From Sulfuricurvum sp. (GTDB lineage Bacteria; Campylobacterota; Campylobacteria; Campylobacterales; Sulfurimonadaceae): 57,840 nucleotides of DNA. The stretch is from NCBI GenBank assembly GCA_030696775.1, contig JAUYRN010000011.1:1-57840 (forward strand), written 5' to 3'. The notes below the pieces were generated by a model, which made no database searches, was not told the DNA's origin, and saw only the letters and a list, made by a program, of their open reading frames with translations. Position 1 is the first letter of the stretch. Every line of letters begins with the position of its first letter. Made by a program: the position numbers and the translations under genes. Shown here piece by piece: positions 27,840 through 36,019 of the stretch.

Positions 27840-28040
27840 ACAATAAACTCCTAAATATGTTTTATTATACCCCCAATTGTCATAAAAGATAATTTTTCTG
27901 TTGCATAATGACAAGTCAATATTTACTGAATTATAAAAAAAATAAGCAAAACTTTTCAAAATTATACGAGGGATTAATGCTGTAGTCGTATTGTAATTAT
28001 TACATCGTAGACTTTTGCATTATTTTGCAAGGTGCCCTTA

Positions 28041-29684
28041 ATGTCAACAGCTCAATCGTCATCATTTTTTTCCCGTCTATCCATCAAACAAAAGATCAGT
28101 CTCATTGTTATACTCACCCAGCTCTTTGCTCTAGTTGCCATATCCATCGGTGTTATTGGGATGTTTCTTTCCAATACATCCATTCAAACCATACACACCC
28201 AAAGTCTCGTTCCCTTGCAGCAACTTAGAACTTGCAAAAACATTATCGACAAAGAGATCAGCAAAACAGCCATCGATATCTCAGAAGGAGTTGGAGATTT
28301 TGACAAAGCATCAAAAACAATCAAAATCTCACATGAGCATTTCAACACAACATGGGCATTGTATTCAAGTGCGAAATTGACCGAACAAGAATCAAAGAAC
28401 CTTCCCGAAATAAAAGAATCGATGGAGCGTGCGAGCCGCTCCATTACTCTTTTAGAAGAAAAAATTGCCGCTAAAGACCTCATGGGTGTCCTCGACCTCA
28501 TCCAAAGTGATTTTCCCTATAGCCTCGCTCCGGCAAATGAAAAAATCGACACCTTGATTGAACTGCAAATTGCCAATGCCGATCATCTTTACGCTCTCTC
28601 CCAAGCTAAATTCAAACAGACACTGATGTTAATCGCGATTACACTTCCTTTGGGAATGATTGTCGTTTTTTTTATTCTCAGAACAATCACTCGAGATTTG
28701 CTCAACAAAATTGCAAATATTACGCAGATTGCGCACCACCTCAGAGAAGGAAATTTACTTCATCGAATCGATTCCAATGGTAATGATGAACTGGCAACTG
28801 CTGCAAAGGACATGAATAACTCTTGTGAAGAACTTCAGAAAATAATATCCGATATTAAATATGCATCCGCCCACAATATGACATCCGCTGAGAAAATGAA
28901 CACCGTCTCCTCTACCATCAAAGAAAAACTTCAAACAAGCACCGCGCATGTTTCTCAAACACATTCCCACATTGTCACTTTACAAGAAATTGTTCTCAGT
29001 TCAACAACTGCAGCGCAAGACACAAATCATAAAATCGATGAAGCCAACACAAATCTTACTTCTGTAACCACTCAAATGTCCAATATTAATGGCAGTATTC
29101 AGTCCGTTGCCCTCACGCAGCAAACTCTCTCAAAAGAGTTAAATACCCTGGCATCTCAGGCTCAGAATGTCAAAGGTATTCTCGAGATCATTGGTGATAT
29201 TGCCGATCAAACCAATCTGCTCGCACTCAACGCAGCCATTGAAGCAGCCCGGGCAGGAGAGCATGGACGCGGGTTTGCCGTCGTTGCCGATGAAGTACGA
29301 AAACTTGCTGAACGCACTCAAGACAGCTTATCTCAGATCAATCGAACGATCAACACCATCGTGGATGCCATCACCGACAGCAGTCAAAAAATGGATAAAT
29401 CTACCACGTCAATCCTGAGCGTTTCTCATGATTCCAATCTCATCCAAAAAATCATTGCAACCTCTTCTTCTCTTATCTCTTTGGCAGCTTCGAGTGTTCA
29501 TCACTCCAACCAACAGCTTCAAAAATTAATGAGCGGAATGGACTTTATCGCATCCAATATCAACTCTCTCAATCTCATTACTTCTTCGAATGAAGAGAGC
29601 ATCCAGCAAATCACCAACGTTGCTATACAGCTCGACCAAAGCACCTCGGATATCAATCAAAAGCTGCAAAAGTTTAGGACTTAA
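28041..29684 (+). CDS. Methyl-accepting chemotaxis protein with a four-helix-bundle sensor
   Basis: 547 residues from the ATG at 28041 (AAGG at good spacing; a GTG lies 9 bases upstream). First helix about 18-42, a periplasmic helical sensor of about 150 residues without cache folds, second helix about 193-215, HAMP (about 216-270), then the signalling domain with the highly conserved hairpin tip ([19 protein letters not shown]). There is no C-terminal CheR-binding pentapeptide. It sends chemotaxis signals to CheA/CheW encoded elsewhere. Its 3' end overlaps the convergent arsC gene by 11 bases. Confidence 0.93.
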
Positions 29685-30024
29685 CTAAAAAGTCAATCAC
29701 TTTTTCAACTGGACGCCCAATCAGCGCTCGATTGTTTTCAATGAGAATTGGTCTTTCGATTAATTTAGGGTACTCCGCCAGCGCGTCGATAAGTTTTGCC
29801 TCCTCTGTTACTTCCGCAAGCCCTAACTCTTTATACAGATCTTCTTTTGTCCGCATAAGTTCCCGCGCCGATATTCCAAGCTTTTGTAAAAGCTCTGTGA
29901 TCTCTTCTCGCGAAGGTGTTGTTTCCAGATATTTAACTACTTCATAGGAAAGACCCTTCTCTTCGAGGAGTTTAAGGGCTTCACGCGATTTCGAACATTT
30001 TGGATTGTGCCAGATGGTTATCAT
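29674..30024 (-). CDS. arsC: Arsenate reductase, glutaredoxin-coupled ArsC family
   Basis: 116 residues from the ATG at 30024 (AGAGAG upstream); a longer frame adds 8 residues. The catalytic Cys is in [12 protein letters not shown]. The arginines of the ArsC active site are present in RTKEDLY, ERPILI and IGRP, and the YKELGL motif is intact. These proteins reduce arsenate with glutathione or glutaredoxin. No other ars gene is near, and it stands alone between a chemoreceptor and a TonB receptor. Spx and YffB relatives share the fold, but the RP/IGRP pattern favours ArsC. Confidence 0.9.
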
Positions 30025-30201
30025 GGTATCTCTCTTTTTTACCAACATTATAACGGCTCAATCGATTGGATAGTGCTAATAAAAATGCGCTACAGTCTTT
30101 AATTTTTAAAATATTAATCTTAACTTATTTTAATTACTTAACACTAATGTAACACTCTTTCTTCATAATCACACTCTTAATTCAAATTTTAAGGAAGAAT
30201 A

Positions 30202-32379
30202 ATGACAAAAACCAGTCGAATCTCTCATAGTATCCTTCTCTCTACACTTTTAGCCAGTTCGTGTATCGCGACTGAAAATCTAGGAATTATAGGTATCGAC
30301 TCGACAACCATCGATGATCGCTTTCATACCAGCAAAACAGAATCATCATCCACCGCTACCATTGATGGCAAAAAAGTCGATGAAGCCCATATCGAAAATC
30401 TTCAGCAAGTTCTCCAAGCAATTCCAGGCATTACAACTGAAATCAAAACAGGAGATACTCTCAAAATTCATATCAGAGGAGTTGAAAATCAACGCTATAT
30501 GGGTGAAAAACCCGGCGTTGCCATCGTCATCGACGGTCTTCCAGTTTTTGAACGCACTGGAGCAGTCAACATCGATCTCGATAATATCGCATCCATCAAA
30601 GTGATTAAAGGAGGAGCATCCTATCTGTTCGGTGATGATGCCCTCGCAGGAGCGGTCATCATCACCACGAAAAAAGGGGCTTCAAATAAATCTATGCTCG
30701 CTTCTGAGATTGGTAGTTTCGGCTATCAAAAACTTTTAGCTGAAACCTCCTTTGCCAATGACTCACTTAATGCTCGCCTTCAAGTAAGCGAGCGCAAAAG
30801 TGACGGCTACTGGAAAGATTCCCAGTACATGTCACGCTACGCCAATGGAAAATTACAGTATTACCTTGATGACACAAGTGATTTAACTTTTGGGCTAGAA
30901 GCGTCTCACCGTGAAAAAGATTCTCATGGAACGGTTGAGGGAATGTCCCAAGCGCTTACGGATCCTACAAGTATAGAGGGGCGTGATTACTCTCGAAAAT
31001 ACGATGTTGATTTACTCAAATTATTTTTAACGTATAGCAAAGATTTTGGCAATAATTCCAATCTCTTAATCAACGTCTACCAGTACGGTGATGATACTCA
31101 ATTTGTCAGTGCACCTCAAAAATACAGCTCTACGGGTGCCGTTGTGACTGATGATGATGCCTATACCACACTGAATGATTATCATCAAGTACAACGAGGG
31201 CTTAAAAGTGAATATCGCAGTGAAGGACAAAACTTAGCGTATCTCCTTGGAGCCGATATTCGCAACAATGTGTATGAAAATAAAACATCCTATCTTGTTG
31301 ATTTTCGTACCCGCCCTACCCCTCCAACATATTACGCTGGAACCATAACAAGTGACAATAAAACAATAGAAGAAGTTTATGCGCCCTATGCAGAAGTTAA
31401 AATTCCACTCAACGAAACTACTACGCTCACGCTAAATGGTCGGTACGATAACATTCGTCTCGATTACGACGATACTCTTCACGCGCTCTCACTTCAAAAA
31501 GATTTCGATGTTTACTCACACCGTGTAGGTCTTACGCATGCCCTAAACGATTCGACGACCCTTTTTATTAGCCGCTCGACAGGTTTTCGTGCCCCCTCTA
31601 TCGATCAGCTTTTCAACGGTACCATTACCCTCGACTCCAAAGTGCTTAACAACCCTGATCTTAAACCAGAAGAAGCCATCAATTATGATCTCGGAATTCG
31701 TGGAACAATACTAGCCATGGATAACACTCTGAGCTACGAAGCCACGCTCTTTTGGCTCGATCGTAAAGACTATATCATGTCCTCAGTCGGGCAATATACA
31801 GCCGCCACAACCACTAACCCTCAAAAATATGAAAACATTGGGGGAATGCGCAGTAAAGGGTTAGAGCTTTCACTTCAAAGCGACTCTAAAAAAACATTTT
31901 CATTTGATATGGCGTACACTTATCTCGATGCGTATTTTACTCAATACGATAATTTTTACCTCGGACTTGGCAGCCCTTATCTTCCAACCTATACGCAAGT
32001 GCACTACGATTTAACGGGTAATACGGTTCCAAGAACCTCCAAACACACGCTAAATTTGACAGGAAACTACAATATTACTTCTTCAACTCTTTTATCAGCA
32101 GAATTTACTGCAAAATCAAGCTACTACGCTGATGAACTCAATCAGCTCCAAATGCCGGGATATGAAGTTGTCAATCTCCTCGCTAAACACACCGAAAAAT
32201 GGGGAAATACAACGTTTGATGTATTCGTTCGTATCGACAATGTCTTTGATAAATTCTACTTCAACACCGCTCGCAGCAGTGGAGATCGCGATTACAACAG
32301 AATTTATAATGAAGAAGACCTTTCCCTTACCGTCAATCCGGGTCGAGTCTATACGGCTGGACTTTCCATCAAATTTTAA
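30202..32379 (+). CDS. TonB-dependent outer-membrane receptor
   Basis: 725 residues with a signal peptide (about 1-23). The plug domain (about 45-165) has VDEAHIENLQQVLQ, IHIRGVE, GVAIVIDGLPV and the IKVIKGGASYLFG motif. A 22-strand barrel follows, ending in a terminal Phe. AAGGAAG precedes the ATG. It opens an operon: the next gene starts 9 bases after its stop and the operon ends with its own tonB. The ligand is not visible. The cargo is inferred to be a metal or metal chelate, because the following genes encode a His-rich protein and an electron-transfer polyferredoxin. I could not make out a convincing Fur box in the 177-base gap upstream. Confidence 0.93.
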   Translation: MTKTSRISHSILLSTLLASSCIATENLGIIGIDSTTIDDRFHTSKTESSSTATIDGKKVDEAHIENLQQVLQAIPGITTEIKTGDTLKIHIRGVENQRYMGEKPGVAIVIDGLPVFERTGAVNIDLDNIASIKVIKGGASYLFGDDALAGAVIITTKKGASNKSMLASEIGSFGYQKLLAETSFANDSLNARLQVSERKSDGYWKDSQYMSRYANGKLQYYLDDTSDLTFGLEASHREKDSHGTVEGMSQALTDPTSIEGRDYSRKYDVDLLKLFLTYSKDFGNNSNLLINVYQYGDDTQFVSAPQKYSSTGAVVTDDDAYTTLNDYHQVQRGLKSEYRSEGQNLAYLLGADIRNNVYENKTSYLVDFRTRPTPPTYYAGTITSDNKTIEEVYAPYAEVKIPLNETTTLTLNGRYDNIRLDYDDTLHALSLQKDFDVYSHRVGLTHALNDSTTLFISRSTGFRAPSIDQLFNGTITLDSKVLNNPDLKPEEAINYDLGIRGTILAMDNTLSYEATLFWLDRKDYIMSSVGQYTAATTTNPQKYENIGGMRSKGLELSLQSDSKKTFSFDMAYTYLDAYFTQYDNFYLGLGSPYLPTYTQVHYDLTGNTVPRTSKHTLNLTGNYNITSSTLLSAEFTAKSSYYADELNQLQMPGYEVVNLLAKHTEKWGNTTFDVFVRIDNVFDKFYFNTARSSGDRDYNRIYNEEDLSLTVNPGRVYTAGLSIKF

Positions 32380-32388
32380 GGAGATACA

Positions 32389-33207
32389 ATGAACAAAACT
32401 ATTTTAACACTCCTTGTCGCAGCTACCCTTTGGGGGTACGGTGATGGAGAAATGTATTGGGCTCCACACGGATGCGATGAAGGAACAGTCACGGCATCCA
32501 AACACGGCGGGCACGGCAAGGGAGAAAGTGCAATGTTTGCGCTTATGAACATGAAAGAAAACACTTCTACCCATCTTATTCTCCCTGATCTTTCCAAACA
32601 ACCACTCACGTTTAAACTCAACACCGTAATGCTCCCAAAACCTAAAATGGGTGGATATTATGCCATGGTAGCAGAAGGAAACAACACGGATGGTGTATAC
32701 AGTGCTATCCGTTATCTATCCCTGCAAGGTCGCCCAAGTAAAGTATCTCCAACAAAACTCACGTCCCTGCCCAAAGTAGCGTTAGAAATCGTCCCAACTC
32801 CGCTACACCGTGAGCATGACCGCTATACCGCTTCAAAATCCTACACCTTTATCCTTAGCTTTATGAACAAACCGCTGAATAATACAATGGTTACACTAGA
32901 AACCTTCAACACTCCTGCTCAATCATACACAACGAATGATAAGGGAGTTTTTACTATCACCCTTCCCGATGATTTTAAAAATGTTCAGATAGGGCGTAGC
33001 GAAAACAAACCTTCAGAATTTCTCCTTAGCGCACAACACCGCGATGGTGCAATTCTTTTTAAAAGCACCTTGTCTATGCCCTATTCTCTGAACCCTAACG
33101 ACTACTGGCAATCTCAGAGCTACGGAGCAGGTGCTATCTTTATCGGTTTCTTAGTGGGATTATTCTTCTATCGCCGACATAAAAACCAAGGAGTTTCCCG
33201 TGGATAA
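32389..33207 (+). CDS. His-rich periplasmic protein with C-terminal membrane anchor (DUF4198-like)
   Basis: 272 residues. Signal peptide about 1-17. Near the mature N-terminus a His/Gly cluster (APHGCDEG, KHGGHGKGE) could bind metal. The middle has Ig-like strands and a carboxypeptidase-regulatory-like pattern (TNDKGVFTITLP) as in DUF4198 proteins, some of which serve nickel or cobalt uptake. A helix at about 244-262 followed by RRHKN anchors it with the body in the periplasm. Strong AAGGAG before the ATG. It overlaps the polyferredoxin start by 8 bases. Metal handling is inferred. Confidence 0.78.
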   Translation: MNKTILTLLVAATLWGYGDGEMYWAPHGCDEGTVTASKHGGHGKGESAMFALMNMKENTSTHLILPDLSKQPLTFKLNTVMLPKPKMGGYYAMVAEGNNTDGVYSAIRYLSLQGRPSKVSPTKLTSLPKVALEIVPTPLHREHDRYTASKSYTFILSFMNKPLNNTMVTLETFNTPAQSYTTNDKGVFTITLPDDFKNVQIGRSENKPSEFLLSAQHRDGAILFKSTLSMPYSLNPNDYWQSQSYGAGAIFIGFLVGLFFYRRHKNQGVSRG

Positions 33208-34201
33208 ACTACTCACAGTTACAGCACTACGACGCGTGATTCAACTCACTGCTTTTGTTTTTTTCGTCTACGGTGCAACAATTTTCGCAACCTTTTATAC
33301 AAACGATAAACTCACCCAAAACTTACCAGCACTCTCATGTGCCTATGATATGAAAGGTGGTGATTTTTGTGCTTTGATCCCATTACAGCACCAGATGGAT
33401 CACCGCGTATCGGGGATCTTTACTCAAAATGCAAAAGTGATGGAAGCATTAATTGGAACCCTTATCACATTGGGAACATTTGCCATTCTCATCCTTCTCC
33501 TCAACAAAGCATTTTGCGGATGGCTCTGTCCTCTCGGTTTTTTTCAAGAAACGATCAGCATGATAGGAACCAAACTGGGTATCACTCAGATGGGGAGTTT
33601 TTCTCGGGAAACAATCAACAAAATTCGTCCAATCAAATGGTTTATTTTCCTCTTTTTAGTCCTTATTCTTCCTCTTTTGACGGGTATCGGCTTTCTTGGG
33701 CACGAATGGGGTAATCCATTTTGCTCTATCTGTCCCAGCCGTATCATGACGACAACTATGACCGGAGACATGTCACAAGTGTATATCTCTCAAGCAAATT
33801 GGGGCTATTTTGCTCTTTCCCTCATCGCTGATTTGCTGTTTGGTTTGATGGTCGCTCTTGCCTTGTTTGTCCGTCAACCGTTTTGCCGTATCTGCCCGAT
33901 GCTGCCAATGCAGACATTGTTCAAAAAAATCGGACTTTTACGCCTCGTTAAAAATGGAAATTCTCATTGTGATACATGTTCAAGTTGTGTCAAAGCATGC
34001 CCCATGGATATTTACGAGATCCAAAACCAAGCCGAAAATAAAAATATCACGCACACAGACTGTACCCTCTGCGGTCGATGCGTTGAATTCTGTCCTCATG
34101 ATGGAGTAATGAACTTCAAATACGGTCCCTTTACGATTCTCTCTTCGTCTAAAGAGTCATTTAAAAAACGAACCAAAATTGATAAATGGTGGAAAGGGTA
34201 A
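33200..34201 (+). CDS. Membrane polyferredoxin (NapH/CcoG-like)
   Basis: 333 residues starting at GTG 33200, which has AAGGAG at ideal spacing inside the end of the previous gene. Four or five helices carry two cytoplasm-side Cys motifs of the NapH type (FCGWLCPLG and FCRICPMLP). The C-terminal part has two 4Fe-4S ferredoxin motifs (CDTCSSCVKACP and CTLCGRCVEFCP). Such proteins pass electrons from cytosol or quinol to periplasmic partners, as NapH does to Nap and FtrD-type proteins do in iron uptake. No nap or nos gene is nearby, so a reductive role in the uptake system around it is the best guess. Confidence 0.9.
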   Translation: MDKLLTVTALRRVIQLTAFVFFVYGATIFATFYTNDKLTQNLPALSCAYDMKGGDFCALIPLQHQMDHRVSGIFTQNAKVMEALIGTLITLGTFAILILLLNKAFCGWLCPLGFFQETISMIGTKLGITQMGSFSRETINKIRPIKWFIFLFLVLILPLLTGIGFLGHEWGNPFCSICPSRIMTTTMTGDMSQVYISQANWGYFALSLIADLLFGLMVALALFVRQPFCRICPMLPMQTLFKKIGLLRLVKNGNSHCDTCSSCVKACPMDIYEIQNQAENKNITHTDCTLCGRCVEFCPHDGVMNFKYGPFTILSSSKESFKKRTKIDKWWKG

Positions 34202-34205
34202 ATCA

Positions 34206-34853
34206 ATGGAAGCAATGACACTCTTTTCACTCTTTATAGTCGCTCTCTCGTATGGAGCGACTGCTTGTATGCTTACTTGTATGCCGTTGCTTTCACCAAT
34301 TCTTTTAGCCAATAGCGCAACTCGACAACAAAGTCTCCGCGTATTACTTCCCATTAGTTTGGGACGCATCAGCGGCTACATTTTTCTCTCCCTCATCGCC
34401 TATCTCGGGGCAACCATGATTAAAACACTTATCAGCGATACCGAGTTGATTGGGTATCTCCTCGGCAGTGTTACACTGATCCTCGCCGGACGTTTGTGGT
34501 TTTCGCTGAGAGTTTCCGCATCTTGCTGCAGTTCTTCACTCAATACCCCGCAGGGGAACATGGCACTATTTATGACCGGAATGTTCCTCTCCATGTCTAT
34601 TTGCGCACCCGTTATCACCATGATGACACTCAGCGCCACTAGCACTTCTATCGGGTGGGCAATAGCTTATGGCTTAGCTTTCGGGTTAGGTGCAACACTG
34701 TTGTGGTTTCTTTTTTTCTCTATTGTCCTCACTGCAATTCTCAAAGAGAGCCTCTCCCACCTCTCAAACTATCGCAATATTCTCCAACACGCGGCACCGC
34801 TGATCCTCGCAGGGGTTGGCATCGCAATTTTTAACGGATGGATACACCTATGA
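34206..34853 (+). CDS. DsbD/TauE-like polytopic membrane protein
   Basis: 215 residues from the ATG at 34206, with GAAAGGG upstream; a longer frame from 34179 would overlap the polyferredoxin. Six helices. The first has a Cys pair (TACMLTCMP) and helix 3 is preceded by a SASCCSSS cluster. The pattern fits the DsbD_2/SafE-like family (relatives of CcdA), which move reducing power or small molecules across the membrane. Together with the polyferredoxin this suggests delivery of electrons to the periplasm. Its stop overlaps the tonB-like ATG as ATGA. Confidence 0.8.
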   Translation: MEAMTLFSLFIVALSYGATACMLTCMPLLSPILLANSATRQQSLRVLLPISLGRISGYIFLSLIAYLGATMIKTLISDTELIGYLLGSVTLILAGRLWFSLRVSASCCSSSLNTPQGNMALFMTGMFLSMSICAPVITMMTLSATSTSIGWAIAYGLAFGLGATLLWFLFFSIVLTAILKESLSHLSNYRNILQHAAPLILAGVGIAIFNGWIHL

Positions 34854-35554
34854 ATACCTCCAAACAAGCATTTGCGCTGTCATTAACCTTTCACTCTCTT
34901 ATGGCATTAACCGCACTATGGATACTGACCGGCATCCATTCGCAAACGACATCATTTGCCGTCCCAATCAAGCATATCACGATTGTCTCCTTGTCTCAAC
35001 TCTCCAAAATTGTATCCCCTCCTACCGAACTTGCTCAGCCTCTAAACCAGACACCCACACCTGAAATACCCAAACAAAAAATAGCCGAACCTATTCCAAA
35101 TGAAGCACCTCATCCTCTCACCACTGCTCCCCGAGTCCCGTCTATAGCGGTTCCAGTAGCAGAAGCGGCAGTCCCCACCGTTATCAATACAAAACCAAAT
35201 GTCTCAATTGCCACGGCTCAAACACCTGCTCAAAGTCCTCTCAAAGCAACACGAAAAGTCGATATCAGTGCTGAAAAACAGTCTTTTCTTACTTATTTAC
35301 GAACCACAATTCAACAAAATCTCCACTATCCTTCAGCCGCTCGTCGTAGAGGGATAGAAGGCGAAGTAAACGTTCGGTTCACCCTTGAGAATGGAGGTGT
35401 CATCCGTAATATAGCTATTTTCGAAGGAGAAAAAATTTTTCACGAAGAAGCCAAACGCGCAATTGTCTCAGCATCAGGCATTAAAATCCCAGAAGCGTTA
35501 TCCGGTACTTTTCCTACCGATATGCAATTGACGCTAGCATTCAAGCTCGATTAA
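34850..35554 (+). CDS. tonB: TonB energy transducer
   Basis: 234 residues from the ATG at 34850 that overlaps the preceding stop; an ATG 12 bases upstream is possible. An N-terminal anchor (about 10-30) is followed by a Pro-rich spacer (about 55-130, with TPTPEIP and EPIP) and a TonB C-terminal domain (about 150-234) with YPSAARRRGIEGEVNVRF and a final LAFKLD strand. It energises the receptor encoded first in this operon. ExbB and ExbD are not encoded here, so it must use a pair from elsewhere. A dedicated tonB means a self-contained uptake unit. Confidence 0.92.
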   Translation: MNTSKQAFALSLTFHSLMALTALWILTGIHSQTTSFAVPIKHITIVSLSQLSKIVSPPTELAQPLNQTPTPEIPKQKIAEPIPNEAPHPLTTAPRVPSIAVPVAEAAVPTVINTKPNVSIATAQTPAQSPLKATRKVDISAEKQSFLTYLRTTIQQNLHYPSAARRRGIEGEVNVRFTLENGGVIRNIAIFEGEKIFHEEAKRAIVSASGIKIPEALSGTFPTDMQLTLAFKLD

Positions 35555-35635
35555 AATAATATACCATTTAATTATTTTAATTATAATAGTGATGTATTCT
35601 ATTGAAGTAATATCTTGTAAAATTGGAGAAACAAA

Positions 35636-36019
35636 ATGTCAAAAAAATTACTCTTGAAAATAGGTGCATTGATTGCACTTACGATAACGGTCCCCCAAAG
35701 TTTTGCACAAGCAAATGGCGAATCTATTTTTGATCAAAAATGTGCCATGTGCCATTTAAAACAAAGACCCTCAGCCGATGAGATGAAAAATATGATTGCG
35801 CCCCCGATGATGGGTGTTATGCGTCACGTCAAACAAGTAAAAACAAACCGCACTGAAGCAATAGCATTTATCGCCGACTATCTTTTTGCTCCGTCCCAAA
35901 AAAGTGCAGTTTGTCTTCCTCAGTCGATTGCAAGATTTGGCGTCATGCCCTCACAAAAAGATAATCTTACAAAAGAAGAGGCTCAAACGGTCGCAGCCTA
36001 TATTTACGATACTTTTTGA
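35636..36019 (+). CDS. Small secreted monohaem cytochrome c
   Basis: 127 residues. Signal peptide about 1-24, one haem site CAMCH (Cys36, Cys39, His40), and Met residues in APPMMGVM and FGVMPS that could give the sixth ligand. AATTGGAG precedes the ATG. It lies 81 bases after tonB in the same direction, so it may be the periplasmic electron partner of the polyferredoxin operon or a separate unit. Confidence 0.9.
   Translation: MSKKLLLKIGALIALTITVPQSFAQANGESIFDQKCAMCHLKQRPSADEMKNMIAPPMMGVMRHVKQVKTNRTEAIAFIADYLFAPSQKSAVCLPQSIARFGVMPSQKDNLTKEEAQTVAAYIYDTF

Follow-up and report, generated by a model that had tools for sequence, protein, structure and literature searches.

Only a small number of copper importers have been described in Gram-negative bacteria. 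In Bordetella pertussis, the receptor CrtA and the PepSY_TM protein CrpH are reported to import copper for haem-copper oxidases, and the corresponding promoter to be devoid of a Fur site (PMC12914433, PMC13038864). The system analysed here is a five-gene operon of Sulfuricurvum sp. (Campylobacterota), located on a stretch of 57,840 nucleotides (contig JAUYRN010000011.1 of assembly GCA_030696775.1, positions 1 to 57,840 of the forward strand), which is referred to as the window. It encodes a TonB-dependent outer-membrane receptor, a putatively metal-binding, membrane-anchored periplasmic protein similar to DUF4198 proteins (called HisP), a NapH-like polyferredoxin, a DsbD_2 membrane protein and a dedicated TonB. 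A single DNA box links this gene set to nitrous-oxide reductase (NosZ), the chaperone NosL and the cbb3 oxidase. The operon is probably a copper-acquisition unit, which would import a copper chelate, reduce the metal in the periplasm and serve the cbb3 oxidase.

Gene order, conservation and encoded proteins

All five genes are located on the forward strand. The receptor gene (30202..32379; PF00593, E 2.7e-46; PF07715, E 1.8e-16) is followed after a 9-base gap by the gene for HisP (32389..33207), which overlaps with the polyferredoxin gene (33200..34201; PF12801, E 1.5e-12) by 8 bases. The gene for the DsbD_2 protein, a SafE-like protein with six helices (34206..34853; PF13386, E 1.9e-13), shares 16 bases with that for TonB (34838..35554; PF03544, E 1.1e-9). 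Its start is more likely the ATG at 34206 than the TTG at 34179 of the mechanically derived open reading frame. An earlier interpretation of the same DNA made without database searches, the sequence-only reading, had described the tight packing of the five genes correctly; their gaps and overlaps do not exceed 16 bases. It had also counted a cytochrome c gene (35636-36019) as the sixth member. This gene lies 81 bases downstream of the five-gene unit and was found at this place in just one other retrieved locus (L016), which is near-identical to the window (polyferredoxin 98% identical); other Sulfuricurvum genomes harbor different genes at this position. Because it is present here only in the window and in L016, the cytochrome c gene was excluded from the unit.

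HisP is rare within its own class and was found in 5 of 298 sampled genomes, including the source genome of the window. In all four other genomes, the receptor, HisP or a HisP-like domain, the polyferredoxin and the DsbD_2 protein are encoded together. A scan with a polyferredoxin profile, using one genome per species, yielded 80 loci in Campylobacterota, Zetaproteobacteria (Mariprofundus) and Gammaproteobacteria, the latter represented by Thiodiazotropha, Sedimenticola, Chromatiales, Methylomonas, Methylophaga and Neptuniibacter. These loci, the window and four fetched relatives made up 85 neighbourhoods, whose proteins were clustered. The five-gene unit recurs across them in the three lineages, which is the outcome of the neighbourhood search that the sequence-only reading had proposed. 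The families of HisP and of the polyferredoxin were present in 79 neighbourhoods each, followed by the receptor (73), DsbD_2 (67), TonB (53), ExbB (46) and ExbD (42). The usual order is receptor-HisP-polyferredoxin-DsbD_2-ExbB-ExbD-TonB with overlapping gene ends; ExbBD are encoded inside the operon in many gammaproteobacterial copies and elsewhere in the source genome. Since the families recur in this order with overlapping ends, the genes represent a functional unit and not a chance neighbourhood. The gene combination was not found described in the literature searched, and HisP had no match in a plasmid collection.

HisP scored 20.3 bits against PF10670 (E 6.6e-4), below the gathering cut-off of 34, and a comparison of its profile with PDB sequences gave only Ig-like chance matches. 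Zcp surfaced by fold comparison alone: the AlphaFold model of HisP, built from 57 sequences (pLDDT 84.8), matched Zcp (VIA Z 18.4) and the Ni-bound DUF4198 protein 9gcb (Z 16.4), and the next unrelated fold followed at Z 6.6. On the predicted structure, HisP has the DUF4198/Zcp fold and is a relative of these metal binders, contrary to the unrelated metal-binding parts that had been supposed from the sequence. The label "His-rich" given to it on that occasion was overstated, with 8 His among 272 residues (2.9%). The structure entries of Zcp include copper, zinc and cobalt complexes and also a triple mutant (H29A/H31A/H142A). HisP contains a local HxxH motif (H39 and H42); H42 is found in >90% of the relatives and H143 is invariant, and these three residues are putative metal ligands. 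The first His is residue 27 and lies past the probable signal peptide.

The polyferredoxin matches PF12801 and dicluster ferredoxin families and contains four helices predicted from hydropathy. Four residues, C47, C57, H64 and H68, are invariant in 74/74 sequences and are predicted to lie in the first periplasmic loop, provided that the N-terminus is inside. Against the NapH/MauN model TIGR02163, the protein reached 78.2 bits at a cut-off of 213; it works like the NapH/MauN type, yet forms a subfamily of its own. The DsbD_2 protein exceeded the cut-off of PF13386 (51.2 versus 24.9 bits). Its intramembrane cysteines C21, C25 and C133, numbered from the ATG at 34206 (plus 9 when counted from the TTG), are invariant in 62/62 sequences. 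For the receptor, the nearest solved structures are those of YncD/PqqU (phmmer against PDB, 6v81, E 6e-26), while its score against the PqqU equivalog NF041535 (132.7 bits) was far below the cut-off of 1200.

Upstream of the operon (28032-30048), the window encodes a chemotaxis receptor and an ArsC/Spx-like protein. Both genes are kept in several Sulfuricurvum only and are probably unrelated to the operon.

The regulatory box and the genes in its company

Word counts upstream of the operons pointed to AATGTAACA, which in the window is part of a 19-bp box, TTAACACTAATGTAACACT (30138..30156, forward strand), located in front of the receptor gene. The box is formed by the direct repeats TTAACAC-N4-GTAACAC in an 11-bp phase. 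A candidate -10 element, CATAAT (30164..30169, forward strand), follows 7 bp after the box, which, judging from the spacing, would take the place of the -35 element. A similar TATNAT-like element is present approximately 7 bp past the box at the same-orientation sites examined. A box in place of the -35 element is the geometry of OmpR/PhoB-type activation. The box is present, in forward orientation, in all 18 readable operon heads of Campylobacterota, including Arcobacter and a divergent subtype, with matches at 12-15 of its 15 defined positions, and shuffled promoters never reached a box score of 14. No known riboswitch was detected in the window or in seven relatives, and de novo searches for upstream palindromes gave none clearly above shuffled sequences. 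For a redox box of the HP1021/CemR type, considered as the identity of the motif, the literature searched describes neither this repeat nor these targets.

A first pattern, TAACACTNNNNTAACA, was built from the window alone and has five exact places in the source genome, including that of the window itself. The refined pattern, TTAACACNNNNGTAACAYT, matches exactly at five places, and a sixth place differs from it at one position. Since the refinement was made after the first matches had been seen, TTAACACNNNNGTAACAYT was tested in other genomes, with the reversed pattern as the control on which the motif statistics rest. In 31 genomes of the family, 45 exact sites were found compared to 1 for the reversed pattern, and 116 compared to 29 when up to one mismatch was allowed.

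Outside the window, one exact site of the source genome, an identical 19-mer, belongs to an OprC-family receptor (OprC, E 1e-16), and another one lies beside ccoN of the cbb3 oxidase. A third is found at an operon encoding a phosphoglucomutase, a dihydroorotase-like protein, a response regulator, a histidine kinase, ExbB and ExbD (L119:2142-6943, G000:C25), and the fourth (G000:C26:15524-15542, L121) is located between dgt and the gene for a 145-residue membrane protein, which is followed by a PpiC-like gene. The one-mismatch site belongs to a divergently arranged pair of genes for a CopZ-like copper chaperone and a SafE-like protein.

All 40 exact sites outside the source genome were fetched and their flanking genes read. 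OprC-type receptors are preceded by 14 of them, and the CxxxM plug motif is present in 14/14; in the receptors tested, the NCBI copper-receptor model was among the best families, below its cut-off. Five further sites precede NosL (four Pfam-checked), three are located at NosZ (one checked), and one each at CcoN and SafE/DsbD_2. The copper-linked sites thereby amount to 24 of the 40, and such a concentration on a few copper genes among approximately 2,000 would not arise by chance. Two of the sites are followed by receptors related to that of the window (38% and 56% identical). In another genome of the same genus (G176), which does not encode HisP, an exact box precedes an operon of the order PepSY_TM-receptor-TonB-ExbB-ExbD. 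At nosZ (L172, L173 and L180) and ccoN (L176 and L123), the box is oriented opposite to the gene, unlike at the importers and NosL; the reversed box may cause repression and thus spare copper. In G301 (L246:2001-7910), the box precedes the genes for TonB, phosphoglucomutase, dihydroorotase, regulator, kinase, ExbB and ExbD, syntenic with the operon of the source genome. The regulator, which in the source genome is encoded at G000:C25 (L119, 3800-4465), is a candidate for binding the box, because it is of the OmpR type and is encoded in this box-headed, syntenic operon. A copper-related regulon of this kind was not found described in the literature searched.

Proposed copper acquisition and its alternatives

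With the box as an independent line of evidence, copper as the metal is well supported in silico for the Campylobacterota. The gammaproteobacterial and zetaproteobacterial copies are without the box (none above 11 of 15 positions), so that the argument for copper runs through homology there, together with two loci outside the Campylobacterota (L070 and L095) in which the operon is adjoined by an additional receptor from the c113 family; one of these, in L095, was confirmed as OprC-type (E 9e-23). Besides the missing box in these lineages, several other observations speak against copper acquisition. The operon encodes no inner-membrane copper importer, and DUF4198 proteins are able to bind nickel or zinc. 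Among 58 relatives of the receptor, no Cys, His or Met reaches 80% conservation, and neither the receptor of the window nor its two relatives found under the box contain the CxxxM plug motif of OprC. The model of the polyferredoxin is poor (pLDDT 65.8) and too weak for structure comparison. Furthermore, the box is also found before other receptors (L179, L186, L207 and L209), before the phosphoglucomutase operon and before genes with no clear link to copper, and the remaining sites include one TonB. With respect to the receptor, CrtA itself was reported to be without conserved Cys or Met (PMC12914433).

Instead of copper, the box might mark a respiratory or low-oxygen regulon, in which the receptor imports another cofactor that needs reduction, e.g. 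haem or quinone. The genes nosZ, nosL and ccoN and those for the copper receptors share a low-oxygen physiology besides copper, and the box faces away from the gene at three nosZ sites, at the single tabulated ccoN site and at that of the source genome. This explanation is nevertheless unlikely, since 14 of the 40 exact sites are located at copper-type receptors and 5 at NosL, which is a copper chaperone, and since the DUF4198/Zcp fold binds metal ions. Reductive iron uptake resembling FtrABCD or P19 would involve a ferric chelate that enters via the receptor and is reduced by the polyferredoxin, with Fe(II) passing through a FeoB encoded elsewhere. Many of the hosts oxidise iron or sulfur at redoxclines, FtrABCD systems contain polyferredoxins, and the best NCBIfam subfamily of the receptor, below its cut-off, is siderophore-type. 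However, FTR1 and P19 are absent among the Pfam matches of the operon, the E. coli-type Fur consensus upstream of the receptors was no better than in shuffled sequence, and the box is one that the operon has in common with copper genes, which renders iron quite improbable. Least credible is an import of nickel, zinc or cobalt, in which HisP would hand over nickel or zinc and the redox proteins would only keep thiols reduced: a solved DUF4198 protein prefers Ni2+ (Kd 18 nM; PMC12537917) and Zcp has been solved with zinc and with cobalt, but HisP is without the N-terminal His ligand of the Ni-binding DUF4198 protein (as far as the likely signal peptide indicates), nickel and zinc require no reduction, and the box sites that were classified include no recognisable nickel- or zinc-related gene.

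In the proposed copper acquisition, the dedicated TonB, together with ExbBD, would energise the receptor for the import of a copper chelate into the periplasm, where HisP would bind copper at the inner membrane through H39, H42 and H143. The polyferredoxin would transfer electrons across the membrane, taken either from the cytoplasm or from quinone, and would act jointly with the DsbD_2 protein in reducing Cu(II) to Cu(I), whereby copper would leave the chelate. The DsbD_2 protein may either relay electrons as thiols or keep the C47/C57 pair reduced. Chaperones of the periplasm would then receive the Cu(I) for the cbb3 oxidase and, in relatives, for nitrous-oxide reductase. An OmpR-family regulator may bind the 11-bp-phased box in place of the -35 element, probably activating transcription. 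The gene unit, its conservation, the fold relationship of HisP and the box with its neighbouring genes are established in silico, and metal binding, the direction of electron flow, the reduction step, the regulator and copper limitation as the signal are the parts of this scheme that we infer. The cbb3 oxidase is the likely main copper client, since the source genome encodes its own CcoG elsewhere and no NosZ, the absence of which rules out the latter as local client. The sequence-only reading had proposed an import unit with a dedicated TonB in which the metal is reduced, and this idea is supported by the conservation of the genes, the fold of HisP and the regulatory box.

A more tentative and rather doubtful extension is that Campylobacterota might have an undescribed copper-limitation regulon governed by an OmpR-family two-component system, the genes of which lie with those for TonB-ExbBD under this box. 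Forward boxes would switch on importers and reversed ones might throttle nosZ and ccoN. The polyferredoxin-DsbD_2 operon could encode a periplasmic copper reductase that was recruited and spread horizontally, with an ATP-fuelled reductase of the double-cubane type driving one of its subtypes. In L013 (3978-9952) and in the additional, divergent copy of the operon that L021 and L022 each contain, the gene set includes a 2-hydroxyglutaryl-CoA-dehydratase-like protein; a BadF-type ATPase is also encoded in the sets of L013 and L021, as in ATP-driven double-cubane reductases. This subtype lies under the same box (13 of 15 positions in L013), and L013 encodes a fusion of the DUF4198-like domain with another polyferredoxin. 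Should the double-cubane-like subtype prove real, electrons of very low potential may serve to reduce copper or its chelate.

Several copies of the operon are accompanied by further genes. A second receptor, a BNR-repeat protein with an HxCECC motif and a thioredoxin-like protein are encoded beside the operon in L034 (5172-8000) and L067 (9866-13698), in the latter followed by ExbBD-TonB. In Mariprofundus and relatives (L072, L077, L080 and L093-L095), an extra LTXXQ/Spy-like protein, His-rich where read, is located between receptor and HisP, and a two-component pair is found upstream in several of these loci. In two Sulfuricurvum loci, L010 (11051-15207) and L026, the genes upstream of the operon encode an additional polyferredoxin, a protein resembling thioredoxin and two multi-helix proteins that contain cytochrome c domains.

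The analysis offers a testable function for a gene set that is conserved across three lineages of sulfur- and iron-oxidisers and previously had none. What would be new is a variant of TonB-dependent reductive copper import together with an apparently undescribed circuit of copper control. Copper supply limits the removal of nitrous oxide; a copper-import regulon therefore bears on greenhouse-gas turnover at redoxclines.

Comparison with known systems

Flavinylated PepSY-DUF2271-DUF4198 clusters also combine a membrane electron-transfer protein with a secreted DUF4198 protein, some of them with a TonB system (PMC8238504), whereas no PepSY, DUF2271 or flavin-binding domain is found among the Pfam matches of the operon. 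With the cupric reductase CcoG, the operon shares a membrane polyferredoxin and the proposed supply of copper for the cbb3 oxidase; its polyferredoxin differs by the extra invariant residues C47, C57, H64 and H68 and by the conserved operon context. OprC and NosA are TonB-dependent receptors of copper (PMC8610252), and receptors of this type are found under the same box in the source genome and its family, but the window receptor is without CxxxM and only distantly similar to them.

The likeness to FtrABCD that the sequence-only reading had seen holds for the polyferredoxin, which presumably donates electrons on the periplasmic side, as it does for P19-FetM. It does not extend to the remaining parts, as the operon is without FTR1, P19 and cupredoxin and includes an outer-membrane receptor and TonB. 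The closest analogue is CrtA-CrpH rather than FtrABCD. This likeness rests on architecture: no CrtA sequence was compared, and the PDB matches included no CrtA entry. In both systems, a TonB-dependent receptor and an inner-membrane redox protein are encoded in one operon, a link to haem-copper oxidases exists, no Fur site was recognised upstream and ExbBD/TonB are sometimes included (PMC12914433, PMC13038864). They differ in the regulatory box and in the redox proteins, as the polyferredoxin, the DsbD_2 protein and the anchored HisP replace PepSY_TM. No operon protein matched PepSY_TM, which is encoded under the same box in the sister species G176. This suggests that PepSY_TM and polyferredoxin modules are able to occupy the same regulatory slot, and by analogy the HisP-polyferredoxin-DsbD_2 set appears to fill a CrtA-CrpH-like slot with different redox proteins.

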